64,000 nucleotides of DNA from Conexivisphaerales archaeon (GCA_038728585.1 JAVYTR010000003.1:124001-188000); one strand, 5' to 3'. Shown: positions 13,151 to 52,574, counted from the stretch's first letter. Program-made: numbers and translations. Notes: generated by a model from the letters alone, not told the origin.

Positions 13151-14341
13151 TCACTCCTCATCTGCTGCCAGGAGGCACACGCACTCACGGCAAACGGTTG
13201 GCCGCAAAGGCGCATACCACGACAGAGTATAGCCAACGAGGCCAGCCTGTCTCTCTCTGTCATAGTCCACGCCACATTTAGAGCACCTGCTCACCGCCCA
13301 CGCTGGGTGCTTCAGCCTTCCACCACCGCAGACGGGACACTTCGATGAGGTCCCACGTGGGCTCACGTAGATGGTGCGATTTCTAGATTTGTACTCCACC
13401 ATCGACTGGTAGAGCCGGTAAGGCCACCTGTTAAGATACGTCCTCAGCTTCCTGCTCTTCTTCGCTCCCCTGCTAGTCCTCCTTATCCCCTTCAGGTCCT
13501 CGAAGATGAAGGATGCGCCGGGGTTCTCCCTCACCATCTTCGTAGAGAGTTTGTGGAGTGCATCTCTGACCCTGTCCCTCTGCCTCCCTCTAGTCTCCTT
13601 CAGCTTCCTCATTCTCTTCTGAGGATTCTTCAAGTGGAGCTGTAACGCCCTCCTTCTCCTTGAGAAGTCATTCTGTATCCGGACGATATGACTGAGAGGC
13701 TCTGTCTTCACCGCTTCGAGGGCAGAAGGCCTCCCATCCCTGGGAGCAGACATGGTAGAATCAACGCTCTTGAAGTTCAGGTCCTGTGCCACGAATTTCT
13801 TCCCGAGAGGCTTGTTCTTCATTTCTTCCCCGACCACGAACGTCAGGCAGACCTTCCTGTCTGTGATGAGCAGCTCTGCTACTCTCCCCTTCGAGTACTC
13901 CCCATAATGCTTGTTGGTGGCGTTGACAGGGAGCCAGACATACCTGTTTGGCTGGAGTGTTATCCTGACCTGCCCGTCGATGATCCTGAACAGCTCTGAA
14001 TCTATCCTCATCGCCAGCTTCTTCACTTGGGGTATCCTCAACTCACCTTGGTTGTTCTTCCTGTAGGACCTCAGCATAGCTACTGCAGCCCTGCAGACAG
14101 GGTTGACGTGGTGTCTGGCGTATCCGTACCTGGAGTAGAACCAGTCACGAACCTCCCTCCTCAGCTGGATGGGAGACGGGATCCTGCGTTTCTCGTTTGC
14201 GATAGCATCTCTGTATGCCACCTGTAGAGCATACCTGACCGCTTCCTGCATGTCTGTGAGGTACCGTAGTATTTCGCATGGCTGCTCCTGTCGCCAGACG
14301 ATAGTCCTCTTATCTCCAGTAGACTTCCATGGGTGGCTCAC
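13151..14341 (-). CDS. tnpB: TnpB (OrfB) RNA-guided nuclease of an IS607-type element
   Basis: 396 aa, uninterrupted. RuvC-like catalytic residues are present: Asp187 (AQDLNFKSVD), Glu281 (FIFEDLKGIRR) and Asp361 (DYDRERQAG, aligning with the DRDxNAA block). The zinc finger has Cys335/Cys338 (CPVC) and Cys353/Cys356 (CSKC). The N-terminal half has the usual REC/wedge composition. TnpB proteins are RNA-guided DNA endonucleases whose guide RNA overlaps the 3' end of the gene. Start is GTG at 14341, overlapping the tnpA stop by 4 nt (GTGA). The upstream tnpA is broken, so this copy cannot move by itself. Confidence 0.92.
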   Translation of the reverse strand: MSHPWKSTGDKRTIVWRQEQPCEILRYLTDMQEAVRYALQVAYRDAIANEKRRIPSPIQLRREVRDWFYSRYGYARHHVNPVCRAAVAMLRSYRKNNQGELRIPQVKKLAMRIDSELFRIIDGQVRITLQPNRYVWLPVNATNKHYGEYSKGRVAELLITDRKVCLTFVVGEEMKNKPLGKKFVAQDLNFKSVDSTMSAPRDGRPSALEAVKTEPLSHIVRIQNDFSRRRRALQLHLKNPQKRMRKLKETRGRQRDRVRDALHKLSTKMVRENPGASFIFEDLKGIRRTSRGAKKSRKLRTYLNRWPYRLYQSMVEYKSRNRTIYVSPRGTSSKCPVCGGGRLKHPAWAVSRCSKCGVDYDRERQAGLVGYTLSWYAPLRPTVCRECVCLLAADEE

Positions 14342-22646: not shown

Positions 22647-23801
22647 TCAAACTTTCCAGTCAATGTCTACTTCTTCTTTGATAGCTACCCTGACGATTCC
22701 CCAGACCATAGCAGCAAGCCATAAGGGAGAATAAACCAGATAGTACAGCACAAACAAGATAGGCGAGAACTTCAGTTTCATCCGCCTAGCAAAGTAGAAG
22801 TACAATGATGAATACGCTGCGAGACCGAACAGGGTAGCAGTTGCGAACGAGAAGATTCCGTTGATTTCCTGAGGGGTGACGAAGGGTATGAGAAGCAGGG
22901 GAAAGCTCCTTGCAGGGAAAGATATGAATAACAGAGCTATGGTATCCCATATCGCAAGGTCCCTGAAGGCAAAACTTGCAAACAATGCAAGCAGAGAAGG
23001 AAAGATCATGAGAAGAGACAGAAGAGCGATCTGAGGTTTTGACCTTACCATGACAAATATCTCCTTCCAGTTATCCCTCAACCATTTAGCTGTACCATAA
23101 GCCCATCTTTTTCTCTGTTTGACCCAAGCCGAAAACGTGGGCGGAGCAAATGTATACACTGGTAAGTCATCGATGAACTTGAACTTCAGACCCCTTTCGA
23201 AACATCTTAGCCCAAAATCCAAGTCTTCCGATATGACATCCCTGAAACCGCCCACTTTTTCAAATGCCTCTTTTGTTATCGCGAATGCTGCGCCGTTCAT
23301 ACCGAAGGTCCGTCTGGTGCTTACCGATATTAGCCAGTCTGCTGCGCTGATGCCCAGGTACTCATAGTAGACCATCTTGGATAGCAGGCTGTTCCCCTTC
23401 ACAACCTTCTTGAACTCAACAACATCATAACTCTGAAGCTCTTCGTTAATCCTTTTCAACAGGTCTTCCCCAACAAGAGATGTATCAGCGTCGAGGAAGA
23501 AGAAAGCATCGCCTTTAGAAAGACTGCAGCCCCTTCTTAAGCACGAAACCTTACCTCTCCTTTCATGGCTTACATCGAAGACCACCTCTTTACCGTATCG
23601 CTCCACAATATCCTGAATGTTCTGGTCTGGGCAGTCCACCACAACAATTATCTCCTTGCTGGGGTGCTTGGATGAAATGAGTTTGAGGATGGTATCTTCA
23701 AGAGTAGGGGAGGTCCGGTAAACGGGTATTATTACTGAAAGGCTGTAATCCTTCTTCAGCGACAACCAATACACACCGGTTTGAAGGTCGCCGTAATACA
23801 T
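22647..23801 (-). CDS. Family 2 processive-type membrane glycosyltransferase
   Basis: 384 aa. GT-A domain about residues 18-250 with YSLSVIIPVYRTSPT, the DxD-like FFFLDADTSLVG, the acid GGFRDVISEDLDFGLR and the QRKRW motif of processive GT2 enzymes. Three to four C-terminal transmembrane helices (about 255-375) form the membrane channel region. It would transfer sugars from nucleotide donors to a lipid or polymer acceptor. A TATA-like TTTTAAGTA at about 23805-23813 is very close to the ATG at 23801, so an internal GTG at 23774 is a credible alternative start. Confidence 0.92.
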   Translation of the reverse strand: MYYGDLQTGVYWLSLKKDYSLSVIIPVYRTSPTLEDTILKLISSKHPSKEIIVVVDCPDQNIQDIVERYGKEVVFDVSHERRGKVSCLRRGCSLSKGDAFFFLDADTSLVGEDLLKRINEELQSYDVVEFKKVVKGNSLLSKMVYYEYLGISAADWLISVSTRRTFGMNGAAFAITKEAFEKVGGFRDVISEDLDFGLRCFERGLKFKFIDDLPVYTFAPPTFSAWVKQRKRWAYGTAKWLRDNWKEIFVMVRSKPQIALLSLLMIFPSLLALFASFAFRDLAIWDTIALLFISFPARSFPLLLIPFVTPQEINGIFSFATATLFGLAAYSSLYFYFARRMKLKFSPILFVLYYLVYSPLWLAAMVWGIVRVAIKEEVDIDWKV

Positions 23802-37492: not shown

Positions 37493-38407
37493 ATGCTGCA
37501 GGTGGAAGGCCTGACAAAAGTGTATTCAGCTAGGTCAGGACCTGCTATACAGGATGTCACTTTTGATGTCAAAGACGGTGAAGTGGTAGGTTTTGTCGGG
37601 TTGAACGGAGCCGGGAAGAGCACAACGATAAGGATAGCTGCTGGAATAATTCTTCCAACCAGAGGAACCGTTTCTGTTGATGGTCATGATATACTAAGGG
37701 ACAAAGTCGAAGCCTCCAAAAGACTCGGCTGGGTTCCTGAATTACCAAATTTCGAACTGAATGCAAAGGCGCTTGATCTCATGAAGTATTACGCAGGATA
37801 CTATGGTATAGAAACTGCAAAAGCCGAGAAGCTCTCGCTTGAGCTTCTGAAGGAGACAGGACTAGGAGGTTACGAAAGGAAGAAGTTGTCAAGCTATTCT
37901 CAGGGCATGAAGAAGAGATTCGCATTGGCTGCTTCTCTTCTTTCAGACCCACAGAACTTCTTGTTTGACGAAATACTGAACGGATTGGACCCTGAGGGAA
38001 TCCTCTTTTTCAGGAACCTGATAGTTGAGATGAGGAAAAAAGGTAAGGCTATTCTTCTTTCTTCTCATATCCTGTCCGAAGTCCAAGAGCTTTCAGACAG
38101 AGTTGTCTTCATCCACAAGGGAAAGGTGGTCAGGGTTGCTACAAGGGAAGAGCTTGCTTCTGTTGAAGGTGGATTCCTGCTTCTTAAGATCGACGCTCTC
38201 GATGAGAAGGCCGTTAGATACTTAAATAATTATGGCAAGGTTGAAGTGGAGAATGATAAAGTAACGGTTAGCGAGTTCAAAGGCGACCCCTCTCTTATAA
38301 ACGCAGAACTTATCAGGATGGGTTACTCTGTAAAGGAGATATCATACAGAACCCCAAGCCTTGAAGACTATTTCTTCAAGCTTATACAGGAGGTTGACAA
38401 AGAATAG
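37493..38407 (+). CDS. ABC-2-type exporter ATPase
   Basis: 304 aa. Walker A GLNGAGKSTT (about residue 37-46), Q-loop region WVPELPNFELN, signature SYSQGMKKR, Walker B NFLFDEILNGLDP with catalytic Glu, and switch His in LLSSHILSEVQ. The extra C-terminal 80 residues are typical of CcmA/DrrA-type exporters. The permease gene begins at the base after its stop codon. Substrate unknown. Confidence 0.95.
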   Translation: MLQVEGLTKVYSARSGPAIQDVTFDVKDGEVVGFVGLNGAGKSTTIRIAAGIILPTRGTVSVDGHDILRDKVEASKRLGWVPELPNFELNAKALDLMKYYAGYYGIETAKAEKLSLELLKETGLGGYERKKLSSYSQGMKKRFALAASLLSDPQNFLFDEILNGLDPEGILFFRNLIVEMRKKGKAILLSSHILSEVQELSDRVVFIHKGKVVRVATREELASVEGGFLLLKIDALDEKAVRYLNNYGKVEVENDKVTVSEFKGDPSLINAELIRMGYSVKEISYRTPSLEDYFFKLIQEVDKE

Positions 38408-39826
38408 ATGCACCCTCTCCTTTACGATTTCAAGAAGGCAATCAGAAGCAGAGGAATGCTTGCTGTTGTGGCCTTTATGGTCCTTTTTAGCCTAGCTATA
38501 ATACCCCTCATCTTCTCGTCACAGGTCTCTTCATCCGCAGCGATATCATACAGCTACACTGAATATTCAGCCACGGATGGATACCATGTTTTGTTATATG
38601 TTTACAACGCCTTTGGACAGCCTTTAGCCGGTGCTCAAGTGAACGTCAGTTTGCAATCTGGCAGTTTCAGCCATATCTTCACAAGCAACAGCAGTGGTTT
38701 TGTTCAATTCGTAGTTCCTGTCAATTCCTCAATTCCTAGTCAGCTCATCACTATGCCTGTAGGGTCTAACCTGCTCTCTGCATTTCCATTAATACTCAAT
38801 CCAACAAAGAACGGTCATACCCAGCCTCCAGCAGAAATTGGATATGTGACAGACCAGACCAACTCATCCAAGATGGACATCTTGGTCTTCGCTTCTGGCC
38901 CCTACTTTGAAGACCCGAATTACCAGTTGTACTATAATTTTTCAAGCTCTCCAGCGGTCAACCAGCTGAATTCCAGCCAGATGCGATTTCTAGCAGATAT
39001 AAATTCAAAGGTAACTATCCTGAGATTCGATGTTCCGAGCAACGAGACAAACAGCCTTGTCATTTTTTCTGTATTCGATAAGAATGGAACATCTCTCGTC
39101 ACAGCCGGCGTATCAGCAAACTTTCTTGCTGAAAAGAGTTTCCAGGCTTCGCCCAAGCAGGTGGCCGCTTCTTTTGTCTCAGGCGTTCTTGCGCTTTTCG
39201 TCCCCCTTATGGCGATTTTAGGAAGCTATTCCGTGTATGGAAGAGAGAGAGTTACTGGAGTCCTTGAGTCTGTTCTGGCAAGGCCGGTAACTAGAAAGAA
39301 CCTTCTCACCTCAAGATTCATCGCAGGGTTGCTGGCTTCTGCCACAGCAATAATACTAACAGTACTGATAGCTGACGGAATAATCTATTACAAGCTAGGA
39401 CAGTCGCTAGATGCTTCTTTCATATTTACTTCTTGGGCTTCGCTCGTTGTTGAAGTAGCTGCCTTCATGGGCTTCATCTTCCTTCTATCACAGCTTACAA
39501 AATCGACAGGTGCCCTAATTGGTGCAGGGATAGGACTCTTCTTGGTGCTCGATTTTCTCTGGAACCTTATCCTGTTCTTTGCTGTTTCTTTGACGGGTGC
39601 AACCCTCGGTTCAGCAGTCTCATACAGGATCGAGATGCTTCTGGACTTTTTGAATCCGGCCCAGTATCTCAATCTTGTTCAGGTTTACCAGACTCGTTCA
39701 ATCTTAGGTATACCGATAAATCCCTCCGATTATGGAATCACACCTTTGACTCTGATATCTGATGGTATTATCTGGTTGGTGCTTCCTGCCCTTGTTTCCA
39801 TATGGCTTGTCAGTAGAAGAGACTAA
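38408..39826 (+). CDS. ABC-2 permease with large extracytoplasmic beta domain
   Basis: 472 aa. One N-terminal helix (about 15-35), then about 230 external residues with Asn-x-Ser/Thr sequons and an Ig-like strand pattern resembling carboxypeptidase-regulatory domains (YVYNAFGQPLAGAQVNVSLQ), then five to six C-terminal helices. YGRERVTGVLESVLARPVTR after TM2 is the conserved ABC-2 coupling region. Partner of the adjacent ATPase; no spacer between the two genes. The external domain may bind cargo or surface polymer. Confidence 0.88.
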   Translation: MHPLLYDFKKAIRSRGMLAVVAFMVLFSLAIIPLIFSSQVSSSAAISYSYTEYSATDGYHVLLYVYNAFGQPLAGAQVNVSLQSGSFSHIFTSNSSGFVQFVVPVNSSIPSQLITMPVGSNLLSAFPLILNPTKNGHTQPPAEIGYVTDQTNSSKMDILVFASGPYFEDPNYQLYYNFSSSPAVNQLNSSQMRFLADINSKVTILRFDVPSNETNSLVIFSVFDKNGTSLVTAGVSANFLAEKSFQASPKQVAASFVSGVLALFVPLMAILGSYSVYGRERVTGVLESVLARPVTRKNLLTSRFIAGLLASATAIILTVLIADGIIYYKLGQSLDASFIFTSWASLVVEVAAFMGFIFLLSQLTKSTGALIGAGIGLFLVLDFLWNLILFFAVSLTGATLGSAVSYRIEMLLDFLNPAQYLNLVQVYQTRSILGIPINPSDYGITPLTLISDGIIWLVLPALVSIWLVSRRD

Positions 39827-40271: not shown

Positions 40272-40952
40272 TTATTTAGGACTGCCCGACAATTCAGTTT
40301 TTGAATATGCTGGCCCTTTACTAACCCTGCTTACCAGTCGGAGGAAGAAGAAGAAATACACTATGGAAGGTATCCATAGATATAGTGCGACAGACGGATA
40401 CAGGAGCTCGGCAGACTCAACTGTGGCAGCAACAAAAAGCTGGACAGCTATCAGAATTGCAACAGAGACAGCTCTGTGGTATTCTGAACTGAGCTTCCTG
40501 CTAAACAGAGCTCTTATGAGATAGAAGCTTTCTGTCACAGCCAGGGCGTAGGCAGGAAGCTCTAGCCATGAATGTGGGTAAAATAGCAGGGCTGTGACTA
40601 CAAGCTGAGGAGAGAGATTGCTGACTACAGCAGGCTGCGTGACAGCTATCGCTTCAAGAGTCCTGGATGTTACATATGTTGAGTATCCGAAGAATGCAAC
40701 ACCAAGAAAAGGTATTATTTCTATAAGTGCGACAAATAGGTTGTGCGTATAGATGTACATCGCCTTAGAAAATAGCGATGCCTGAGTCTGGATTGTTTCG
40801 TTTAAAGAGGAGTAAGCATTGGAGAGACTGGTTGCTTCTGAATTGGATATAGGCAAAGAGACTATCACGTAGAAGAGGGCCAACTGTATGATGAAGACTA
40901 GCAGAAATATTCTCAACCACTGCGAATCTGAGTTGCTATGAGGAGCCGTCAA
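40272..40952 (-). CDS. SpoIIM/DUF95-like integral membrane protein
   Basis: 226 aa from the TTG at 40952; TTTAAACG at 40981-40988 is the likely TATA box, and the longer frame up to 41126 has no family support. Five or six helices; the pair LFVALIEIIPFLGVAFFGYS and LLFYPHSWLELPAYALAVTE matches the SpoIIM (stage II sporulation M) core, where a PHG/PHS-x-x-E-L motif is conserved. In archaea the family is widespread and of unknown function, sometimes linked to membrane transport. Confidence 0.78.
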   Translation of the reverse strand: MTAPHSNSDSQWLRIFLLVFIIQLALFYVIVSLPISNSEATSLSNAYSSLNETIQTQASLFSKAMYIYTHNLFVALIEIIPFLGVAFFGYSTYVTSRTLEAIAVTQPAVVSNLSPQLVVTALLFYPHSWLELPAYALAVTESFYLIRALFSRKLSSEYHRAVSVAILIAVQLFVAATVESAELLYPSVALYLWIPSIVYFFFFLRLVSRVSKGPAYSKTELSGSPK

Positions 40953-41296
40953 ATCTATTTTTTGTGCCTCGGTCCAGAGGTTTAAACGTCTTTCGAAATG
41001 AACTGCTTTCAGTTGCCAAGTTGTCTTGCAACTATGACGGACAGTGCAATTTTTTACACTCTCCTTTCCATGCGTTTTGATATATCTGACATATGGGGCT
41101 ATGGTATAGGGTTGAGTTTGCATCATCTGTTAAGTAAACATGCCTGGCTTCTTCATAACTACTCAAAGCATTTCCAATGTTAGATACCTTTTCGATAAGA
41201 AGCATCACTGAAAGAACGTAATAATTCGGTATCTGTACCTTATCTTTGAGCTACAATCTCCATATACCGTTATAAGCCGCTTCAAGTCAGTGCGAG
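40953..41296. other. Divergent intergenic region
   Basis: 344 nt between the SpoIIM-like gene and the first TackOD1-like gene. Contains TTTAAACG (40981-40988, minus strand promoter) and TTATAAG (41270-41276, plus strand promoter). No RNA gene or convincing small frame. Confidence 0.5.
41270..41276 (+). promoter_or_regulatory. TATA box of the first TackOD1-like gene
   Basis: TTATAAG is centred about 25-27 nt before the TTG/ATG start pair at 41297/41300; leaderless. Confidence 0.55.
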
Positions 41297-42280
41297 TTGA
41301 TGTTTACGATCGCTCGCGGTGCCGAATCAGAATATGCCATGCATCATATCCTGACTGCCCTTGCAGTGGGAAAGGCACAGAAAGTGTTGTTGACCAGGGA
41401 AAAGTTCTCCGGCCATATATTTGTAGAGCCCAGATTCCAGCTTGATGAAAATGTGATGCTGGAGGATGTGGTCAACGTGCTTCAAGACCTTTCACTCTCT
41501 GGATATCTTTCTAAGAGCGAATCTGTTTCGACCTATTGCGTGAAGTGCTTTACCCAGAATCTGCTACTCGTGGGAAGATGCCCTAGCTGTGGTTCGACAC
41601 AGATCAGAAGGGGTAGCGAACTCGAGCATACGTGTGGCTACAGCGGGTTTGAGACTATGTTCGTTTCGAAAAGAGGTATGGTATGCCCAGCTTGTGGAGG
41701 GAGTCTTGGAAAGGAAGGAACAGACTACAGGTCCAAGGGCAAAGTCTACAGGTGCATATCATGCTCCAAGCTCTTTCCAAATTACAAGGCAAGCTACGAA
41801 TGCAGCAACTGTGGAGCCAGTTACGAAAAGGGAAATGAACCATCACTCGAAGTGACAAGCTACGAGGTTACGGAGAAGTTCTGGGCAGGGTCGCTGGGTC
41901 TTCTTGCAGCATACAGGCTTAAAGACACGATAATGATGAAGCTGCAGCAAACAGGGTACAAGGTCACAGCACCCTTTTATCATCAGACTAGGTCGGGCAA
42001 TATCTTTCTTGACGTCCTTGCCGAAAACAAGTCTGACAGGATAGGAGTGAAGATATATCCACTATCACTGCCTGAAGAATCTGTGCTTCTTGACGACCTT
42101 CTTTCTTACAAGAGCCTGGCAAAACTTAAGAAAGGAATAGTCATACTGCAGTCTAACCTGTCATCAGCGGCAACAGCGAGACTGGCAAAGTCAGGCATAA
42201 CGCTGATAAAGCCCGACTTGAGAAGCGCACAAGTATTAGAGGAATTGATAGCTGTAAATAGAAACGAATATTCAAGATAA
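41297..42280 (+). CDS. Multi-zinc-ribbon protein, TackOD1-like (paralogue 1)
   Basis: 327 aa. Residues 1-75 look like a winged-helix or helical input domain. The centre has eleven Cys in a repeated ribbon pattern: 81/84, 95/98, 113, 130/133, 153/156, 169/172. The C-terminal part (about 190-320) is an alpha/beta domain (RIGVKIYPLSLPEESVLLDD, KGIVILQSNLSSAATARLAK). The Cys layout strongly recalls the thaumarchaeal output domain TackOD1 found on signal-transduction proteins. A second copy at 51594-52574 has an identical Cys spacing. Start TTG 41297 or ATG 41300. Function is unknown; a regulatory role is inferred. Confidence 0.72.
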   Translation: MMFTIARGAESEYAMHHILTALAVGKAQKVLLTREKFSGHIFVEPRFQLDENVMLEDVVNVLQDLSLSGYLSKSESVSTYCVKCFTQNLLLVGRCPSCGSTQIRRGSELEHTCGYSGFETMFVSKRGMVCPACGGSLGKEGTDYRSKGKVYRCISCSKLFPNYKASYECSNCGASYEKGNEPSLEVTSYEVTEKFWAGSLGLLAAYRLKDTIMMKLQQTGYKVTAPFYHQTRSGNIFLDVLAENKSDRIGVKIYPLSLPEESVLLDDLLSYKSLAKLKKGIVILQSNLSSAATARLAKSGITLIKPDLRSAQVLEELIAVNRNEYSR

Positions 42281-42419
42281 GAGTTTCTGACAGCTGGTCA
42301 CGGTATGTTCATCTGAGAAGACGCTGGATATTGTACTACCTAACATCTATCTACATACCGAAGGTTTGGTTTTGACACGGTGCCGATCCATATCTAGTCA
42401 GAGAGGTCTCCCAGCCAGG

Positions 42420-42941
42420 TTACTGTTGTAGTGGCAAAGGACCGAAATACGGGGTGTTACCAACGTTAATGAATACACTGTAGCAGGTCGAAGGAAGTCC
42501 CACAAGGTAAGGTTCCTCATACTTGCCCGCGTATACAGTATAGCTCACGGTTACTGTGTGCGTACCATTGCCTTCCATAGAGTCAGCTGACATACTCATG
42601 CCTGATGGTAGTTGGAACGAAACGCTACCTGTAGTGTTATCGATCGGCCAGACAGGAACGGAACCGTCCAGCATTGCATACGTGAGAATACTCATGTTTG
42701 AAGAGTAAAGCACAGTTACATGACCCGATGAATTTGAGGACAACACAAATTCTGTCGTACCAGCTCTAGGGTGAACCGTTGTTGAAAATCCCGAAGAATT
42801 GAGAAACGTGACAGTTGCAAATAGGTTGGTACAAGTGTGCCCTTTGTTCTCGTCGATATAAGTTCTGTAAACGTAGTTCCCTGCAAAACCGCTCGCTACT
42901 ATGACTATGGCTAAAATTCCTATAGTAATCTGCTTGCGCAT
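42420..42941 (-). CDS. Exported or membrane-anchored hypothetical protein
   Basis: 173 aa. N-terminal helix about 5-25 (ITIGILAIVIVASGFAGNYV) preceded by RK, then an external beta-rich region with several Asn-x-Ser/Thr sequons and two Cys (37 and about 158) that could form a disulfide. No family recognised. A bidirectional AT element around 42978-42990 could drive both this gene and the divergent winged-helix gene. Confidence 0.6.
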   Translation of the reverse strand: MRKQITIGILAIVIVASGFAGNYVYRTYIDENKGHTCTNLFATVTFLNSSGFSTTVHPRAGTTEFVLSSNSSGHVTVLYSSNMSILTYAMLDGSVPVWPIDNTTGSVSFQLPSGMSMSADSMEGNGTHTVTVSYTVYAGKYEEPYLVGLPSTCYSVFINVGNTPYFGPLPLQQ

Positions 42942-43029
42942 ACACCAGACATTGGTCTGTTTGGAGATAATCCTTTCCCATATTTATCTGGGAAATGTTG
43001 ATATAACTCGGAATGCATTTAGTCCTCGA

Positions 43030-43542
43030 TTGAGAAGTCTAGAAGCAATTCAGGTACTCCTCTTTTCATTCGCAGTGGTTGAGACCTGGCTCTCCGTACT
43101 TTCACTCACAGCGGGCTCTGCCTTGGGACCTAACAATTATAGACTACCAGCTGTTCTCTCCTTTTTCTGGCGTTTTGCACCTCATCTGTCTATATCAACA
43201 TGGGCCGCTTTCGGACTAACGGTATGGCTAGGCAGGTCTGCCAGGAATTCTTTCGTCAGGTCCGGTTTTGATGATGACATATACGAGCTGATGGTGAAGA
43301 TGAAAGGAAGTGGTTCAAGGGTTCTGTTATTAAGGAATCTTGAGGAGCCGAAACACAGATTCGACCTGGCCAACTCTCTGGGGTTAGACTGGAAAGAGGT
43401 AGACAGACAGTTAAATATTCTGCAGAAATATGGTCTAGTAAGCGTCGCTGCAACTTCTGGCAGTGTTAGGATGTACAAGATAACGGAACAAGGTAGGGCA
43501 CTGATAAAGCTGATCGACGCAGTAGCGGGAAAAAGGACTTAG
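43030..43542 (+). CDS. Membrane-tethered winged-helix protein
   Basis: 170 aa from the TTG at 43030 (a longer frame from 42901 would overlap the divergent gene and lies over the promoter). Two N-terminal helices (about 8-30 IQVLLFSFAVVETWLSVLSL and 48-70) are followed by a winged helix at about 85-165: RFDLANSLGLDWKEVDRQLN, ILQKYGLVSVAATSGSVRMY, KITEQGRALIKLID. Predicted one-component regulator anchored in the membrane. The ligand is unknown; its nearest neighbours are an exported protein and the SRPBCC/ABC cassette. Confidence 0.7.
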   Translation: MRSLEAIQVLLFSFAVVETWLSVLSLTAGSALGPNNYRLPAVLSFFWRFAPHLSISTWAAFGLTVWLGRSARNSFVRSGFDDDIYELMVKMKGSGSRVLLLRNLEEPKHRFDLANSLGLDWKEVDRQLNILQKYGLVSVAATSGSVRMYKITEQGRALIKLIDAVAGKRT

Positions 43543-43730
43543 GTCCATATGAGTACTTGTTGCGTCTGTCGGCTTTGTGTTAAGCGTATTGGAATCGACC
43601 AACACTTGAAAGATAAACAAGATTGTAACTGTCGATTTCTTTTGATATAGTATACATTATCACTTCGTGCATTAATCGTAAAATTGAAAAACGTCTTCTC
43701 CAATCATAAAACAAATGGTGCCGGATTTCA

Positions 43731-44174
43731 ATGAATGTTGAGGAGAGCATCGAAATAGAGGCTGACAGAGATACGGTATGGAAAGCAATATCAGACTTCT
43801 CAAGGGAGAAGGAATTCTGGCATAGCATTAGGGATGTGAACGTGTTCTCCCGGAGCGACAACCTCATTGTAAGAGAGGTCTTTCAGAATTTCAGAAACGG
43901 CAGAGTTGTGCAGAAGGTAATCCTGCATCCCAAGAATTCTATCGAATACATTCATCTGAGGGGCTCGATGAAAGGGAAGAAAGTGCTCTTCATAGAACCT
44001 GTAAAAGAAGGTATTACGAGGCTGACTGCTGCTTGGCATATAAGACTAGGCTGGTCGTTGCTTCTACTGAGCCCCATAGTCAAGAAGCACATAAGGGAAG
44101 GAACTAGGAACGCTCTGAAGAGAATAAAGGCGGTTTGTGAAGGTAAAGAAGAGGAGCTCTCGGAAGCAGAGTAG
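43731..44174 (+). CDS. SRPBCC (START/CoxG-like) ligand-binding protein
   Basis: 147 aa. SRPBCC fold: MNVEESIEIEADRDTVWKAI, then strands with VFSRSDNLIVREVFQNF and a long C-terminal helix (PIVKKHIREGTRNALKRIKA). It binds hydrophobic ligands; specific ligand unknown. Followed within 90 nt by a MacB/LolD-type ABC system on the same strand, which suggests lipid handling, though this is inference. Confidence 0.8.
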   Translation: MNVEESIEIEADRDTVWKAISDFSREKEFWHSIRDVNVFSRSDNLIVREVFQNFRNGRVVQKVILHPKNSIEYIHLRGSMKGKKVLFIEPVKEGITRLTAAWHIRLGWSLLLLSPIVKKHIREGTRNALKRIKAVCEGKEEELSEAE

Positions 44175-44260
44175 AGACTGCGCATGCATCAATGAAGACA
44201 TATTAATACCAAGAAGCCCTGCCATATATATCGTTGCAAGCAGCAAGCACAATACCGTTG

Positions 44261-44914
44261 ATGGAATTAAATTCGATAGTGAAGATAAGGAACGGCATGA
44301 AGCTGCTTGACGGAGTGACACTCGAGCTGAAAGAAAGAGAGGTAGCCATGGTTGTGGGAAAATCGGGCTCCGGTAAGACAACACTTCTGAGGATCTGCGC
44401 GCTTGTGGATAAAGAATTCACGGGCAGGATGAGGGTAATGGGCAGTGATCCCTTCCACGATAAGAAAGATTCGTACCTCAGGCTTGTGAAGATAGGCTAC
44501 ATACCACAGTTCCACGACCTCCTTGAGCAGCTAACTGTGATAGAGAACGTAGAGCTTCCTCTGCTTCTGCAGGGTATAAGGAAAGATGAATGCAGAAGGA
44601 GAGCCACAGAGGTTATAGAAAGGCTTGGTATTCAGTCTGTTTCGAACAAGTTTCCAGCAGAGATATCAGGCGGGGAGGCTCAGAGGGTAGCAATAGCAAG
44701 GGCCCTAGTTAAAATGCCTAGCATTATAATTGCAGATGAACCTACTTCCAGCATAGACCCCGAAGTTGAAGATAGTGTATTCAGAGAATTCAGAAGGTTG
44801 GCAGACCTTGGAAGCTGCGTGCTTGTCTCCTCAACTCAGAAGGACCCAAGTTATAGTCAGTACTTCGACTCGGTGTATTTTATGAATTCAGGGCATCTTC
44901 ACAAGGAAGGATAA
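44261..44914 (+). CDS. MacB/LolD-type ABC transporter ATPase
   Basis: 217 aa from the ATG at 44261. A TATA-like CATATATAT (44223-44231) sits just upstream of the alternative TTG at 44234, which argues for the ATG. Walker A VVGKSGSGKTTLL, Q-loop YIPQFHDLLEQL, signature ISGGEAQRVAIARAL, Walker B IIIADEPTSSIDPE. The switch His position reads VLVSSTQKDP, so the usual His is replaced by Gln. It pairs with the FtsX-like permease that begins 21 nt later. Confidence 0.92.
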   Translation: MELNSIVKIRNGMKLLDGVTLELKEREVAMVVGKSGSGKTTLLRICALVDKEFTGRMRVMGSDPFHDKKDSYLRLVKIGYIPQFHDLLEQLTVIENVELPLLLQGIRKDECRRRATEVIERLGIQSVSNKFPAEISGGEAQRVAIARALVKMPSIIIADEPTSSIDPEVEDSVFREFRRLADLGSCVLVSSTQKDPSYSQYFDSVYFMNSGHLHKEG

Positions 44915-44935
44915 TGGTTCTAGGGAGCGCTCACC

Positions 44936-46891
44936 TTGGCTAGCTTGAAAATACCTACCATCAAGAGAATTTTGCTCTTCGTTAAGCTGTTTCTCAGGTC
45001 AAAACGTTTCACTTCTGCACTTGTGGCGATCTCACTGCTCTCAAGCATATTTGTCACTACAACTGCGGTTGGAGGTCAAATCTACCTGAGACTGGGCGAG
45101 GACCTTCCAGTCCTGCTGGGTACTAATTCGCATTTTGAAGTTGTGGATTATTCGCTTTACGTCACTAATTCTGGAAATCAGTGTCTTGCAATAGTAAATT
45201 CCTCTTCCTTTGCAAGATTGGCAGGTTCTCAACGGGGAGCTGTTGCAGGGGCACAGAGCGGAGTAAGCAACACAACTCTGGTCGCATTACCCTCGATGCT
45301 CAACTACTGCATGCTTGCTTCGGCAGATAATATAAGCACAAACGGTCTGAGCTATCTGGGGAGATCAGAGGCTGTTCTTGGCTCTGGAGCCTCCTTACTC
45401 TTTGTCAGAAGCGCCACCTCTTCTTTTCTTGATATGCTGCAGCTATTCTCTCTGTTCGGAATCTTGGCTTCAGCTGCTATTTCCGCAGCAGCCTGGTCCT
45501 TTGTCCTGAGCAGGAGTAAGGATCAACTGAAGAAGATCAGGGAGCAAGTTCTAGCAACCGAATACATGAGATTACCACTTTGTGTCTTGGCAGCGATAGT
45601 CTTCTCTCTGGTCTTTCTTCTTTCACTTATGTTTTCTGTCTTCATCCAGAATGTTTCCATTGGCGTGATCAATTTTCTTCTCGGTTCAACGCTTCTCTAT
45701 TCTGGTCTGCAGACAGCATCGATCGTTCAGTCAGCGATAATGGCTTTTATGTCGTCTGTTATGTTTATCATCTTCTCCTTCATTCATACCAGAAGTAAGG
45801 ATGAATATGAAAAGCTTGGTACAAATCCAGGCAGGAGGTATGTGACCCACCTGTCCTATCTTACCATTCTGGTATTTTTTATCGGTCTTGCTTCATCCCT
45901 ACCTTTTCTGGCGACCGTAGCTTCGACCTCTAGCCTGGACTATGTGTCGTCTGGTGGAGGGAATGTGCTGATTCCCAGCAGCACGCCTTTTCCTCTTACC
46001 TCATCAATGCAGATACCTGAACGGATAAATTGCAGCAGTTACAGCGCTGAAGTTGCCTATCCAGCTACAATAGATGGTTACAGGACTGTGGTGAGGGGTG
46101 TTGACGAAATCAATTCTAGTCAGTTCTATGGCTGGATGCTTATAGCCGGCAGATGGCCAGCTGCTCCCTTTCAGATCGGTCTTGGCTCTCAAATTGCAAG
46201 CAGATTGAGGGTGACTGTAGGCGATGTAGTTGAAGTACAGGATGAACTGACAGGTAATTCTGTAAGCTTCGAAGTGACAGGGATATTTCAGGCTGCTGGT
46301 ATGATTGAGCAGGAAGGAGTGACAGGCATAGCATCTGCTCAAGCGATGGCTGGAATGGCTTCAGGGACTTATTCATACCTCAGAATTCCTTACAGCTGCG
46401 CAAAGAGCTATGCAGCAGAATCGCACTCTGTGGGGATAAGCCAGCTTCTTTCAAGAATCTTCTTTCTCCAGCCTGCCAAGCTGCAGGGAAATCTGCTTTC
46501 CGTGTTTTCAGGTCTGCAACCTCTGGTCAACTCGATGGCTGCGCTTGCTGTTACAATAGTTACAAGTTCTTCTGTCAGCATCTGGTACGCTTCGGAAGTC
46601 TTTGTATCAGCTTCGGGGATCAGAAAAAGGGCCAGGATAAGATGGGAGCAGGGTGATAGAAGGTCTAGACTTTTATTTGAATATGCAGCCTTTCCAGCTT
46701 TTCTGGGCCTCGTTGCGGTGCTGGTCAGCGAATTACTCTCCGCAGGTTTGGTTGTGTACGGTCCATTCCCTTCGGTATTTTACCAGATGCTGCCACCTCC
46801 AGCTCCTCCGTACTTTACCGTTTTGCTGGCTGTACTGGCTGTTTCCTTAGCACTGGCTCTCTACAATTCAAACAGAAGGTTTGAGGAATGA
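44936..46891 (+). CDS. FtsX/MacB-like ABC permease
   Basis: 651 aa, TTG start with GGGAG upstream. An N-terminal helix, an external segment, three helices near 160-300, then a second helix and external MacB-like periplasmic core domain (about 330-520; RGVDEINSSQFYGWMLIAGR recalls MacB_PCD, VTGIFQAAG) and three C-terminal helices. This duplicated layout matches the eight-to-ten-helix FtsX permeases. It overlaps the next gene by 4 nt (ATGA). Likely extracts or exports a lipid or lipoprotein-like substrate. Confidence 0.85.
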   Translation: MASLKIPTIKRILLFVKLFLRSKRFTSALVAISLLSSIFVTTTAVGGQIYLRLGEDLPVLLGTNSHFEVVDYSLYVTNSGNQCLAIVNSSSFARLAGSQRGAVAGAQSGVSNTTLVALPSMLNYCMLASADNISTNGLSYLGRSEAVLGSGASLLFVRSATSSFLDMLQLFSLFGILASAAISAAAWSFVLSRSKDQLKKIREQVLATEYMRLPLCVLAAIVFSLVFLLSLMFSVFIQNVSIGVINFLLGSTLLYSGLQTASIVQSAIMAFMSSVMFIIFSFIHTRSKDEYEKLGTNPGRRYVTHLSYLTILVFFIGLASSLPFLATVASTSSLDYVSSGGGNVLIPSSTPFPLTSSMQIPERINCSSYSAEVAYPATIDGYRTVVRGVDEINSSQFYGWMLIAGRWPAAPFQIGLGSQIASRLRVTVGDVVEVQDELTGNSVSFEVTGIFQAAGMIEQEGVTGIASAQAMAGMASGTYSYLRIPYSCAKSYAAESHSVGISQLLSRIFFLQPAKLQGNLLSVFSGLQPLVNSMAALAVTIVTSSSVSIWYASEVFVSASGIRKRARIRWEQGDRRSRLLFEYAAFPAFLGLVAVLVSELLSAGLVVYGPFPSVFYQMLPPPAPPYFTVLLAVLAVSLALALYNSNRRFEE

Positions 46892-48453
46892 GAACCAAGC
46901 TCTGGATGCTGGCAGCGGCTGGACTGCTCATTGCGTTGAGGCTGATCCCAGTGTTTCAGGGCGGACCTGTGTTCAGCATAGATGCCTGGCCTTTGCTGGC
47001 AAATTCAAACCTCTTGCTGCATGCAGGCCATGCTGAATTCTTCCCCTGCCAGCAACAACCCAGCTGCTACCTTGCCTCGTGGCCTTCACTCGAAGCTCTT
47101 TCGGTTCAGCTCAGCTCAGTAACTGGCATACCTCTTCTGTACGTGCCCTTGGTCGTAGTTTCTGCCTCTACAGCCTTGCAGCTCTTTGCTGTTCTTCTGC
47201 TCTGCAAACTTTTCGTTGGCAAGTACTGGCCCGGTGCGCTATTTCTTCTTGCAGATGCCCCTGCAAACCTGTTCTACTCCGGGTTCAAGCAAGAGATGTA
47301 TGCTATGTCAATCGCTGTGCTAGCTATATTCATAGTTGCAAAGAAAATGCAGAATTTGAGTGGTAAAGACCTTGTAGCTTTTTCCATAGCAGGCCTTGGC
47401 GTTGTATTCGGGCACCACTACTCCACATATATCCTTGCTGCTGCTGTTACCGGGCCCATTGTCTACTCTCTCCTGAGAGTTGAAACTAATGGAAAAAGTA
47501 GCTACAGGCTTGCAGGTGCGATACTGCTTACTTTGGTGGCTGCATACTATGTCACTCAGTTCAGCTACATATCAGCAGTGAGCGGTTATAATCTGAGCTT
47601 CATCATCACACTTCTTTCGTATGACACTGTGCTCGGCATGTTAGCCTTTCGCCTTCTTGATAGCAATCGCCAGGTAGGATTTCCCAGGTTCTTCGCAGCG
47701 TTTGCTCTAGCAGGAATAGTGTTTACACCTTTTCTCGGTAAATTTCTATATGTTCCTCTTGACTCAGCCTCGATAATTTCTCAGATAGTATTTCTACTGC
47801 CTCTCTTGCCTGTTGCTTCTCTCGGGCTGGCATCAATTATTTCTGCAGACAGAGAAAGAGGCTCCATCATTCTCTTCTGGTTCGTTGCTCCCCTAGCGGT
47901 TTCCATCTTCGCCATATTCGACGGGAATGCAGTGTTGGCCTATAGAGGCTACGTCGCGGCCACCATACCTTTAGCCGTTGCCTTCTCTGCAGCACTTTCA
48001 TGGATGGCAAGTTCCAGGGCAAAACCAACCTCTATCAAGGCCTATACGCTTATCTTTCTGTTTGCAGTATCTGTAACGGCTGGAGTCTACTCAGAAGTAT
48101 TGCCTGTATACTCTGCAAGAGACATATTCGATGGGTCAACCTGGTTCTACCCAACCTCTCAACTGACAGCTGTATCTGATGCGTCTAGACTAGTACAGCA
48201 GAATACTACGATATTTACCGACCTCCCCACGCTTTCATATTTCTTCATGCTGCAGAACAGGTCAGTGACTGCAGCCTTACCTCAATCTTTTGCAGGAGAG
48301 GAGAAGTCAGGTGTTCTCCTTCTTCAGCAATCTGATGACAACGAATTTTATTTCACAGGGAACTATGCTTCCTTAACTGTTAATCTGAGTTCACTGGCCA
48401 GGAGCAACATACTCTTCAGGGGTGCAGGGTATTCAATCTACGCATCAGGATGA
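46888..48453 (+). CDS. Polytopic membrane protein, possible GT-C glycosyltransferase
   Basis: 521 aa, about 12 helices followed by an external C-terminal domain (about 400-521). The first external loop has an Asp in VFSIDAWPLLANSNLL, and a later loop has FGHHYSTYI; both are of the kind seen in GT-C enzymes that use lipid-linked sugars, but no diagnostic motif is complete. Start overlaps the permease stop (ATGA), so it is translated with the ABC system. Function is a suggestion only. Confidence 0.6.
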   Translation: MRTKLWMLAAAGLLIALRLIPVFQGGPVFSIDAWPLLANSNLLLHAGHAEFFPCQQQPSCYLASWPSLEALSVQLSSVTGIPLLYVPLVVVSASTALQLFAVLLLCKLFVGKYWPGALFLLADAPANLFYSGFKQEMYAMSIAVLAIFIVAKKMQNLSGKDLVAFSIAGLGVVFGHHYSTYILAAAVTGPIVYSLLRVETNGKSSYRLAGAILLTLVAAYYVTQFSYISAVSGYNLSFIITLLSYDTVLGMLAFRLLDSNRQVGFPRFFAAFALAGIVFTPFLGKFLYVPLDSASIISQIVFLLPLLPVASLGLASIISADRERGSIILFWFVAPLAVSIFAIFDGNAVLAYRGYVAATIPLAVAFSAALSWMASSRAKPTSIKAYTLIFLFAVSVTAGVYSEVLPVYSARDIFDGSTWFYPTSQLTAVSDASRLVQQNTTIFTDLPTLSYFFMLQNRSVTAALPQSFAGEEKSGVLLLQQSDDNEFYFTGNYASLTVNLSSLARSNILFRGAGYSIYASG

Positions 48454-48546
48454 AAAATGATGCTGAAAATCTTTCATAAAAAGTTGCTTCAGTTGTATGT
48501 AAAAATATGAAAAATGTGGTCATAAATGCAATACTAGGAAGGAAGG

Positions 48547-48553
48547 CTTATAC
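48547..48553 (+). promoter_or_regulatory. TATA box of the acyl-CoA ligase gene
   Basis: CTTATAC is centred 27 nt before ATG 48577, indicating a leaderless start there rather than at TTG 48556, which would overlap the promoter. Confidence 0.55.
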
Positions 48554-48576
48554 ATTTGCATTTTCATAAGCATGTC

Positions 48577-50226
48577 ATGGATAGTTATCGTTATCAACTC
48601 AACATAAACAGCCTGCTTGCGAGGACGGTCTACAGAAAGCCTAGGACAGAGATAGTCTACGGGGATAAGAGATACAGCTGGTTACAATTCTATGAGCGTG
48701 TCAGGAAGCTCGCTTCCTCCTTGGAATCTCTGGGGGTGAAGAAGGGGACAAGGGTAGGGGTGCTCGACTTCGACACGCACAGATATCTCGAGCTTTACTA
48801 CGCAGTTCCGATGATGGGAGCAGTTCTGCATACAGTCAACATCAGACTCGCACCTGAGCATATAGCCTATACAATAAATGAAGCCGAGGACGAAGTATTG
48901 ATGGTCAGAGATGACTTTCTGCCGTTGGTATCAAAGCTGGCCTCCAGTCTGAAGAGGGTAAGGACTCTTGTCACGATGAGCGATACTGGTGTTGCCCCAT
49001 CTTTTACAGGAAGTAATGCAAAGTTCTACGATGACCTGCTGGAGTCTGGAGATGCAGGCTACACCTTCAGAGAACCGGATGAAAACGACATAGCCACAAT
49101 CTTCTACACATCAGGCACTACTGGTATGCCCAAAGGTGTCTGGTTCACGCACAGACAGATAGTGCTTCATTCACTCGGCTCATTAGTGGGATTCAGCATG
49201 GGTCCAAAGCAGTATTCTCTTGAGGCTGGGGACGTTATGATGCCTGTAGTTCCATTCTTTCATGTTCACTGCTGGGGGATGCCATACAACGCTGGATTGC
49301 TTGGTTCGAAATTTGTTCTTGTTGGTAAGTACGAACCTCTGAAGATACTAGAACTTGTAAGGAGAGAAGGAGTAACCTTCTCAGCCATGGTACCAAGCAT
49401 ACTCAACATGGTTCTGAACCATCCTAGTGTTGCAGAGTACAAAGAGGCTCTGTCAAGATGGAAGGTGGTGATTGGAGGAGCTGCCCTGCCCAGAGGACTG
49501 GCTGTCAAGGCAAAGATGCTGGGGATCAGGGTGATGTCAGGCTACGGCCTCAGCGAAACTGCACCTGTACTCACTCTTGCAACCCCGTCAGAACAGCATC
49601 AAAATATGAGTGAAGACGAACTGCTTGACAGAGTTCTCCTCAAAACTGGGCTGCCAATTCCCCTGGTACAGCTAAGAGTTGTGGACGAGGCGATGAATGA
49701 TGTGCCAAGAGATTCCAAGACCCCTGGAGAGATTGTGGTAAGGACACCCTGGCTCACGCCTGGCTACTACAAGGACGAAAAGAAGAGCGAAGAATTGTGG
49801 AGGGGAGGCTGGCTGCATACAGGTGATATGGCTGTCGTAGATGAAGATGGCTACATAACCATAGTGGACAGGCTGAGGGATGCGATAAGAAGCGGCTCAG
49901 AATGGATATCGAGCGTTCTCCTTGAAGACTACATAAGCAGACACCCTGCAGTTGTTGAATCAGCTGTCATAGGGGTTAAAGACGAGAAGTGGGGGGAGAG
50001 ACCATTAGCTGTAATTTATGCAAAGGAAAGAGTTACGGAGCAGCAGCTTGCTGAACATCTTGCGAAATTCGTGGAGGAGGGAAAGCTGGCGAAGTTCTGG
50101 ATTCCTGACAAGTTCGTCGTAATCAATGAGCCGCTGCCCAAGACAAGCACCGGAAAGATAGACAAGAAGCCTCTTAGAGAGAAATTCAAGAGCCTTGATA
50201 CTATAACATCAGAAAGTATGGCATAA
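48577..50226 (+). CDS. AMP-forming acyl-CoA synthetase
   Basis: 549 aa from ATG 48577. Adenylates a carboxylic acid and transfers it to CoA. AMP-binding motif TIFYTSGTTGMPKGVWFTH, the A5 motif MSGYGLSETAPVL, hinge region LHTGDMAVVDEDGYITIVDR and catalytic Lys in PLPKTSTGKIDKKPLREKF are all present. It resembles the fatty-acyl/medium-chain ligases abundant in aerobic archaea. No beta-oxidation genes are adjacent. Confidence 0.95.
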   Translation: MDSYRYQLNINSLLARTVYRKPRTEIVYGDKRYSWLQFYERVRKLASSLESLGVKKGTRVGVLDFDTHRYLELYYAVPMMGAVLHTVNIRLAPEHIAYTINEAEDEVLMVRDDFLPLVSKLASSLKRVRTLVTMSDTGVAPSFTGSNAKFYDDLLESGDAGYTFREPDENDIATIFYTSGTTGMPKGVWFTHRQIVLHSLGSLVGFSMGPKQYSLEAGDVMMPVVPFFHVHCWGMPYNAGLLGSKFVLVGKYEPLKILELVRREGVTFSAMVPSILNMVLNHPSVAEYKEALSRWKVVIGGAALPRGLAVKAKMLGIRVMSGYGLSETAPVLTLATPSEQHQNMSEDELLDRVLLKTGLPIPLVQLRVVDEAMNDVPRDSKTPGEIVVRTPWLTPGYYKDEKKSEELWRGGWLHTGDMAVVDEDGYITIVDRLRDAIRSGSEWISSVLLEDYISRHPAVVESAVIGVKDEKWGERPLAVIYAKERVTEQQLAEHLAKFVEEGKLAKFWIPDKFVVINEPLPKTSTGKIDKKPLREKFKSLDTITSESMA

Positions 50227-50230
50227 AGTT

Positions 50231-51466
50231 TCAGGATGGAGGCGGACGTGTGCCTAGCACAACGTCTATTACAAGTGTCTGGTTTCCTCTTACTATGGTT
50301 AACGCTACGGTCTGACCAGGCAGAGTATTTTCTTCCAGATATGAACTGAGTGCGTCACCGTTCACTATCCTCGTTCCGTTTATTGCAATTATCAAGTCTC
50401 CACCCACTGTTATCTGACCCTCTACAGTCTGTATCTGCTTGCTGCCTCCCCTTATCCCAGCGTTCGCAGCAGGTCCTCCAGCAACAACCGATTCAACAAG
50501 CCAGCCGTAAGTGATGTTTACACCTGCAGCAGAAGCTATGTAGGGTGTCATGTCTGTTCCCTGTATCCCTAGGTATGGATGAGAATTGTAGCTACCCGTT
50601 GCAACAAGGCTCGGCAGCTCTCTCAGAATCGTGTCTGAAGGAATCGCAAACCCGAGCCCCTGAGAGTTGCTGACTGTAGCTGTTGTTATTCCTATGACAT
50701 CTCCGTTAGTATCAAGTAGAGGCCCGCCTGAATTTCCAGGGTTGATCGGAGCGCTGAACTGCAGCACGTCAGCGATTGCATAATTTCCAGCAGTGGATTC
50801 TGTTATTGTTCTGCCGACCTGGCTTATGATCCCGAAGGTCATAGACCCAGCAAGCCCGAACGGGCTGCCGACTGCAACTACAGGCTGTCCAACCTGCACA
50901 TACCTTGAAGGCACAACGTTGAGAGGAGCTATGCTGCTTGGCACCTTGACTGATAGCACTGCAAGGTCGCTGTATGGGTCTGTGCCCACTACTCTAGCAA
51001 ACCCTGAGGAGCCATCGTAAAAGATCACAGTTATGTTGCTTGCTCCATCTACAACGTGGTTGTTGGTAATTATGTAGTCGCTTCCGTTGTAGGAGTAGAC
51101 GAAACCAGAACCCTGGACCAGCTCGTACTGTGTTGTTGGACCGAAGAATGTCAGGACAGACTGTGAGATTATCCCCTCGATGACGACGACAGAGCTCTTC
51201 ACCCTGTTGTAGATTGTAGTGAGGTTGCTCGGAACTGTGTATGATGCTGCTCCTGTCTGGTTCAGGGAGCTGAGCTGAGCCTTCAGCAGGTTCACTTCGC
51301 CCTGCAGCGCAAGAAGCTGCTGCTGAATGGAAGAAGGCTGCTTCGTATAAGTGTTAGAAGCAAGCGCAAACCCAAGGGCAGTACCAGCGGCAGCACCAGC
51401 TACAATCCCAATTATCACCAGAGCTGCGATAAAGATTCTTCTATTCTGAGGAACCTGATTGGCCAA
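50231..51466 (-). CDS. HtrA/DegP-like serine protease with PDZ domain
   Basis: 411 aa. N-terminal anchor helix about 11-36 (IFIAALVIIGIVAGAAAG), coiled segment 45-70, trypsin-like domain about 80-285 with catalytic His137 (TNNHVV), Asp167 (YSDLAV) and Ser246 (GNSGGPL), and PDZ domain about 293-405. External quality-control protease. Start is TTG at 51466 with a GAGGAGG ribosome-binding site about 10 nt upstream. Convergent with the acyl-CoA ligase, 4 nt apart. Confidence 0.95.
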   Translation of the reverse strand: MANQVPQNRRIFIAALVIIGIVAGAAAGTALGFALASNTYTKQPSSIQQQLLALQGEVNLLKAQLSSLNQTGAASYTVPSNLTTIYNRVKSSVVVIEGIISQSVLTFFGPTTQYELVQGSGFVYSYNGSDYIITNNHVVDGASNITVIFYDGSSGFARVVGTDPYSDLAVLSVKVPSSIAPLNVVPSRYVQVGQPVVAVGSPFGLAGSMTFGIISQVGRTITESTAGNYAIADVLQFSAPINPGNSGGPLLDTNGDVIGITTATVSNSQGLGFAIPSDTILRELPSLVATGSYNSHPYLGIQGTDMTPYIASAAGVNITYGWLVESVVAGGPAANAGIRGGSKQIQTVEGQITVGGDLIIAINGTRIVNGDALSSYLEENTLPGQTVALTIVRGNQTLVIDVVLGTRPPPS

Positions 51467-51593
51467 ACCTTTACTTCCTCCTCGGAATTTTTCTTCCCCC
51501 TATGCTTGTTAAAAATACTTTTCCGAAAAAAGTTGCCTTGCAGTCCAGATATGAGCAAACGATTTATTACCTGATATCCTAAGCAAGTGGTGC

Positions 51594-52574
51594 ATGAGCT
51601 ATCTTGGTCCGGGGGCTGAACTGGTTTTAAACAGGCTACTGAGAGCCCTTGCAGAGGAGAGGGTCTCGGATATAGTATCTTCGTACGAAAAGTATACCAA
51701 TCATTATTTCTTCCAGCCTTCTATACAGCACGAGGTCCCCGTGACGGAGCCGGACATAATATCTGCGCTCGAGCATCTGCAGGATACTGGAATACTTTCT
51801 GGTGAAGAGTCGCAGTCAAGGTACTGCGTTGAGTGTTTTGGTATCGATGTGGAGTTAGCTGCCAAGTGCCCCAGTTGTAACTCGACTAAGGTCTCTTTCG
51901 GAAAGGTGATGACTCACAGGTGTGGTTTCAAAGACTTGGAGGAAGCCTACGGCACAGTAGGGGAATGGGTGTGCCCCCAGTGCAAAGCGGGTATATATTC
52001 TCCGTATGAGGAATGCAAAGTTGAGGGGCCACTCTACAAGTGCAAGTCTTGCAATACTTTCTTTGAAACACCCAGAAGCTGCTACGTATGCAAGGACTGT
52101 GGCCAGCAGTACGAGATGGGCGATGAGCCCTACGTGAGGATAAGGAAGTACAGGCCTACGCCTATAATGAAAGCTCTGAAAGATGACATACTTGCATCCT
52201 ACAAGCTGTTCGACGCACTCTGCGACCAGTTCTCGAAGGGAAGATACGAATTGAAGAGGTCTGTCCTAGCGGATGAGGATGAAACTACTGTCTACTGGGA
52301 TGCGGTAGCTAAAAAGGGCAGAAATAAGTTCGGTCTTCTTGTCTTATCACCGTCAGAGAGACTTGATATAGTGACAGCTGAAAGGATTATAGCAAAGAAG
52401 AGGACTTCTGCGCTTGGTGCTGCAGCTGTAATAACAGCTCAGAACGCTTCAGCAACTGTGCACGGAAAGCTGAGGAGGGAGAAGATAGCTCTGCTCAATC
52501 CGACTAAATCTCTGTTATCAAGTGAATCTGAGATCAGGAAGGTTGCTGCAGAGATAGCGCCAGAACTGTCCTGA
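51594..52574 (+). CDS. Multi-zinc-ribbon protein, TackOD1-like (paralogue 2)
   Basis: 326 aa. Same organisation as the protein at 41297-42280: N-terminal helical domain (about 1-72, GAELVLNRLLRALAEERVSD), central Cys at 78/81, 92/95, 110, 127/130, 150/153, 166/169 with additional Cys 141 and 163, and a C-terminal alpha/beta domain (RNKFGLLVLSPSERLDIVTA). Every shared Cys is offset by exactly three residues from paralogue 1. Resembles the TackOD1 output domain. It is divergent from the HtrA gene. Confidence 0.72.
   Translation: MSYLGPGAELVLNRLLRALAEERVSDIVSSYEKYTNHYFFQPSIQHEVPVTEPDIISALEHLQDTGILSGEESQSRYCVECFGIDVELAAKCPSCNSTKVSFGKVMTHRCGFKDLEEAYGTVGEWVCPQCKAGIYSPYEECKVEGPLYKCKSCNTFFETPRSCYVCKDCGQQYEMGDEPYVRIRKYRPTPIMKALKDDILASYKLFDALCDQFSKGRYELKRSVLADEDETTVYWDAVAKKGRNKFGLLVLSPSERLDIVTAERIIAKKRTSALGAAAVITAQNASATVHGKLRREKIALLNPTKSLLSSESEIRKVAAEIAPELS

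Follow-up and report, generated by a model that had tools for sequence, protein, structure and literature searches.

Two genes in a 64,000-nucleotide stretch of the genome of a Conexivisphaerales archaeon (GCA_038728585.1, JAVYTR010000003.1:124001-188000; the window) raise the question of what a pair of zinc-ribbon proteins with one and the same cysteine skeleton does for its cell. Protein 1 (41297-42280, +) has 327 aa, with a TTG start and an alternative ATG at the next codon (41300), and protein 2 (51594-52574, +) has 326 aa with an ATG start. An earlier note on this DNA had located both open frames correctly and had linked them to TackOD1, a family whose function has been open since 2018. 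Proteins 1 and 2 are ordinary members of this known family, and they give useful new clues to its role. The explanation that fits best as a whole, and which we hold to be rather probable, is that they are stand-alone TackOD1 proteins, duplicates of a pilus-locus gene, that act as zinc-stabilised, cytoplasmic regulators or adaptors of surface machines. New here are the inactive restriction endonuclease (REase)-like C-terminal domain, a third copy in the genome, the duplication from a pilus-linked copy, and the alternation between pilus and GT2 genes.

Two members of the TackOD1 family

The skeleton shared by the two proteins is far beyond chance. BLASTP aligns 299 residues without a single gap (protein 1 residues 8-306, protein 2 residues 5-303) at 27% identity (156 bits, E 9e-50). 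Eleven cysteines of protein 1 (81, 84, 95, 98, 113, 130, 133, 153, 156, 169 and 172) recur in protein 2 at an offset of exactly three residues, as the earlier note had claimed, and so does a twelfth conserved ligand, His111 in protein 1 and His108 in protein 2. The N- and C-terminal flanks had been described as different, which is wrong: the N- and C-domains are both homologous, and the difference in length is confined to the last ~20 residues.

Both proteins score above the curated PF18551 (TackOD1) cut-off of 32 (81 bits for protein 1, 62.4 bits for protein 2), which bears out the family assignment, and 51 of 51 sampled relatives match the same profile. The family's 11 conserved cysteines, arranged in five CXXC motifs plus an H-C pair, are present in both, the pair being HXC in the window copies and HXXC in many relatives. 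In protein 1 the zinc part spans residues 81-188 (41537-41860, +) with five CXXC, one HXC and 12 ligands; in protein 2 it spans residues 78-185 (51825-52148, +), where the same 12 ligands at −3 are joined by Cys141 and Cys163. Each ligand position is conserved in 71-98 of 99 homologues, and the 12 predicted ligands would be enough for three zinc ions per protein. Double zinc ribbons (DZR, PF12773) and the PriA insert also have CXXC pairs, but the window proteins have three predicted zinc sites rather than two, and no helicase.

Profile positions 11-187 match protein 2 residues 13-187. Because PF18551 thus spans the N-terminal region, the helical N-domain that had been set apart earlier belongs to TackOD1 itself. 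In protein 1 we place this alpha/beta region at residues 1-80 (41297-41536, +), from the elements of its AlphaFold2 model (helix 9-23, strands 29-35 and 41-44, helix 55-67, strand 71-79) and from the coverage of PF18551 in protein 2 and relatives. A Pfam scan gave no REC match and no helix-turn-helix (HTH) match in either window protein. The earlier observation that no kinase or response regulator is attached therefore stands, but not the idea of a special one-component version of an output domain, since the stand-alone form is the usual one and had already been listed.

Galperin 2018 (PMC5847659) defined TackOD1, described the 11 cysteines, listed stand-alone proteins, and noted arCOG06883 and a pilus link, and Makarova 2016 (PMC4858521) assigned double-zinc-ribbon proteins of arCOG06883 to the type IV pilus loci of thaumarchaea. 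The core of our finding is already known, because the consulted portions of these two papers cover the family, its stand-alone form and the pilus link. The window copies share with this family (PF18551/arCOG06883) the profile match, the cysteine pattern and the stand-alone form. They differ in the HXC spacing and in lying outside any pilus locus; the REase-like domain and the GT2 association do not appear in those same portions.

Of 61 relatives, 39 have the domain, as do 246 of 398 phylum genomes; most of the frames that contain it run to roughly 300-400 aa, with about 330 aa the usual length. The nearest named genome with TackOD1 is Thaumarchaeota archaeon Centralia_MAG_53 (G001), of the same family and another genus. 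A sequence search for viral relatives gave none, and a PDB sequence search with the N-terminal and zinc parts returned scattered zinc ribbons only. Three order-level relatives (L073, L074 and L075, family f4) encode TackOD1 homologues of ~265 aa in which the zinc core is partly reduced and the C-domain is kept.

A predicted inactive restriction endonuclease fold

The C-terminal domains (41861-42280, +, in protein 1; 52149-52574, +, in protein 2) had been noted as alpha/beta, and can now be described as a degenerate Mrr-like PD-(D/E)XK fold. The AlphaFold2 models, built from only five sequences and judged usable, have a mean pLDDT of 82.4 and pTM of 0.67 for protein 1, and 75.1 and 0.68 for protein 2. 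Foldseek placed the models among REase-like folds, including the Cdn1 nucleases. The protein 1 model matched AF1548 (1Y88) at E 4e-5, and also Can2, EndoMS, Bax1 and EcoT38I; the protein 2 model matched Can2 (E 9.7e-5) and 1Y88 (E 1.5e-4). Viral Foldseek matches reflect the REase fold only. When a profile of the C-domain was run against the PDB, 1Y88 was the best biologically plausible match (E 0.026), the two that scored better being designed proteins. In their modelled structure the C-domains have an Mrr-type REase-like fold.

The same domain is present in 80 of the 99 aligned members, with the family motif G-x-S-G-x-x-H-x-x-D. The C-domains of two relatives exceed the Mrr_cat (PF04471) cut-off of 21, at 25.1 and 23.8. 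To Mrr-type domains and AF1548 the likeness lies in the predicted fold, the strand order and the alignment of the relatives' motif region. The difference is that the window proteins lack the catalytic E/QxK and fall below the Pfam cut-off, and nuclease activity is not expected. NA-iREase1 (PF22722), the inactive REase domain of NACHT proteins, is likewise an inactive REase-like domain, but protein 1 scores below its cut-off (16.4 against 27, E 0.009) and has neither a NACHT domain nor a conflict-system context.

An active nuclease, serving defence or DNA uptake rather than regulation, is what the fold and structural neighbours such as Can2, EndoMS and Bax1 would bring to mind, and DNA uptake could take place through pili. 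We regard it as highly improbable. The strand 3 E/QxK is absent from all 80 C-domains, the motif II Asp is kept in 46 (both window copies included) and lost in 34, and REC-TackOD1 relatives do without the C-domain altogether. A D...[EQ]xK pattern does match in 8 of the 80, in loops and not in strand 3, and was rejected as an active site. Because the catalytic E/QxK is missing, we predict that the domain is a dead nuclease. It appears to be a new feature of the family, as it has no description in the portions of PMC5847659 and PMC4858521 consulted.

Linkage to pilus motor genes and GT2 synthases

TackOD1 adjoins pilus motor genes or, largely as an alternative, a gene for a membrane GT2 polysaccharide synthase. 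Pilus motor genes (T2SSE or T2SSF within about 10 kb) accompany 53 of 101 TackOD1 copies, against a chance expectation of about 2% estimated from T2SSF density. By set, the linkage holds for 26 of 60 copies in relatives and for 27 of 41 in the wider phylum, where 40 further regions were taken and 39 were usable. Within the phylum set, GT2 genes lie near 10 of the 14 copies without pilus genes and near none of the 27 with them (p about 9e-7). Nine TackOD1 copies immediately precede a GT2 gene in tandem, and the Pfam matches of the GT2 proteins include Glyco_tranf_2_3 and Chitin_synth_2.

In family f7, probably the Nitrosopumilaceae, all 14 loci of the long form of TackOD1 are pilus loci, and the TackOD1 gene is followed there by a pilin-like gene, usually with a 4-bp overlap. 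The REC-TackOD1 proteins of the same family adjoin either GT2 and polysaccharide deacetylase genes or REC, HPt and HK genes together with a PIN-T2SSE-KH ATPase. The gene at L076:57-1655, which lies immediately upstream of a GT2 gene, encodes a fusion of TackOD1 with a KaiC ATPase.

Origin of the window copies

Three TackOD1 copies occur in this genome of 1.93 Mb (27 contigs, 99.6% complete), two in the window and a third on another contig. The third lies inside the genome's only recognised type IV pilus locus (L033:9611-10729); the earlier note had missed both this copy and the pilus and GT2 context of the family. The L033 copy and a TadC (T2SSF) gene, the latter with a pilin operon, are divergently oriented; a T2SSE ATPase is close by, and a gene for a 97-aa coiled coil shares 4 bp with the L033 copy. 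As the genome has a single T2SSF locus, there is one recognised pilus system for three TackOD1 proteins. The T2SSE ATPase of this locus (L033:12644-16027, −) is interrupted by an intein that includes a LAGLIDADG endonuclease (Pfam Intein_splicing, 44.6 bits), and two relatives have ATPases of similar enlarged size (L035:5414-8782 and L049:10830-14213).

A maximum-likelihood tree of 99 sequences, with bootstrap values not fully settled, unites the window copies, the L033 copy and three sister-genus copies in one clade (100/100), whose neighbours in the tree are proteins from another family that are themselves pilus-linked (98/92). The sister-genus copy at L037 is an orthologue of protein 2 (100/100); for protein 1 none was found among the 99 sequences. 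Identities of the window copies run at 27-33%. As judged from these sequences, the window genes arose from a pilus-linked TackOD1 gene by duplication within this lineage, and have since diverged and been relocated. With one pilus-resident copy and two dispersed ones, the genome offers a natural example of module duplication and of possible specialisation.

Candidate role at the cell surface

The reading we favour builds on the family, the C-domain fold of the predicted models, the missing active site, the pilus and GT2 linkage, and the duplication. Beyond these, we infer a regulator or adaptor role on a surface machine. Each protein joins an alpha/beta N-region and a multi-ribbon core, with three predicted zinc sites, to a Mrr-like fold at the C-terminus that lacks the catalytic residues; the zinc core and dead-nuclease domain may serve as binding surfaces. 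The TackOD1 gene of a type IV pilus locus was duplicated in this lineage and its copies moved elsewhere. The protein may control the pilus motor or a GT2 polysaccharide synthase from the cytoplasm, and the two copies in the window would then work in trans, the likely target being the same pilus system, so that they probably help control the cell surface. A regulatory role is consistent with the REC fusions (9 of 51 relatives), with the KaiC fusion beside GT2, and with the REC-TackOD1 proteins beside GT2 and polysaccharide deacetylase.

How such control might be exerted is a separate matter. Bacterial PilZ proteins act on pilus motors and on GT2 synthases. By analogy of role only, TackOD1 may be a protein-level adaptor that acts directly on the motor ATPase and TadC or on the GT2 synthase, a reading we hold tentatively, at somewhat less than even chance. 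It would suit a protein linked to two different membrane machines that are under post-translational control in bacteria, and it is in keeping with the tight tandem coupling to GT2, with a linkage held in every gene orientation, with the acidic to neutral character of the proteins, and with the coiled-coil partner gene that overlaps the pilus copy. No PilZ-like fold or ligand site was found, which counts against it.

The protein-level adaptor is slightly favoured over a DNA-binding transcription regulator, in which a winged-helix N-region would combine with zinc ribbons and a dead REase fold to grip DNA and control the adjacent surface operon. We think this doubtful. Binding to nucleic acid is common among zinc ribbons and REase folds, Galperin 2018 lists a REC-wHTH-TackOD1 architecture (PMC5847659, in the portion consulted), and one REC-type relative has weak MarR, FeoC and HTH_69 matches that overlap the start of TackOD1. 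In a scan of 51 members, however, the 25 Pfam families with the most frequent matches include no HTH family, and TackOD1 proteins as a family have an isoelectric point of about 6, with no general positive charge and no sign of DNA binding in charge across its members. Gene arrangement points both ways: 19 pilus-linked copies are divergent, but the tail-to-tail (convergent) placement is commonest, with 27 copies, and 7 lie on the same strand.

A strong-looking candidate for an operator was a palindrome, TTGTTC-N8-GAACAA, in the divergent promoter of f7 pilus loci (G058 and others, for example L055:9503 and L057:9519). Seven of nine core sites lie upstream of TackOD1, and 11 of 18 genomic sites (20 genomes) fall in the pilus locus. 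A genuine TrmB regulator (50 bits) is also encoded in these loci, next to T2SSF, as at L057:4867-5715, and the sole f7 locus without TrmB (L078) keeps TackOD1 and has no palindrome. For these two reasons the palindrome is likely to be the operator of the adjacent TrmB-family regulator, and it was rejected as a TackOD1 operator. It is also absent from G000 and G001. A general palindrome search upstream of TackOD1 gave 23 of 98; shuffles gave 13.6 with a maximum of 24, so the excess is not significant. The genome's own three TackOD1 promoters have in common just a 9-mer, on opposite strands.

Several points weigh against the favoured reading. The window copies adjoin neither pilus nor GT2 genes, and their own function rests on kinship at ~30% identity. 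Pilus genes occur without TackOD1 in some genomes, and in others TackOD1 is accompanied by neither pilus nor GT2 genes. The phylum-set loci were picked by profile score, with one clade of 19 rows over-sampled, and in the model of protein 2 the zinc part has low confidence.

A wider generalisation, again by analogy and in our view possible but unlikely, is that TackOD1 may be a general archaeal control module for surface machines, both type IV pilus motors and GT2 exopolysaccharide synthases, holding the place of PilZ with a dead REase fold as its binding surface. The dead REase C-domain and the pilus/GT2 alternation lead to testable predictions about the partner of each copy and about control of attachment or biofilm.

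Neighbouring genes in the window

No T2SSE or T2SSF gene lies near the window copies, a pilus-locus location being common in the family and not required. An automated count tagged both copies as GT2-linked through the length of the window alone; the GT2 gene concerned (22647-23801) is 17-28 kb off, and the copies are really orphans. Protein 1 is divergent from a SpoIIM-family membrane protein gene (40272-41126, −; PF01944, 42.4 bits, cut-off 26.9), and protein 2 from the gene of an HtrA/DegP-like trypsin-PDZ protease (50231-51466, −; PF13365, 108.7 bits; PDZ_2, 37.5 bits).

With an envelope gene divergent from each copy, the two proteins might have drifted to a non-pilus role, for instance in envelope stress with the HtrA protease or the SpoIIM-family protein. 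Their high divergence would agree with this, as would the zinc ligands and reading frames, which have been kept as expected of functional genes. We consider such a change of role unlikely: the neighbours are not kept around the sister-genus orthologue L037, and for that reason the window neighbourhood says little.

Elsewhere in the window, an ABC-2 ATPase/permease pair (304 and 472 aa) at 37493-39826 is found in the same order in the sister genus, at L034:1-2098. A 396-aa frame at 13151-14341 (−) resembles, by eye, an IS200/IS605 TnpB-type protein with a C-terminal zinc ribbon.

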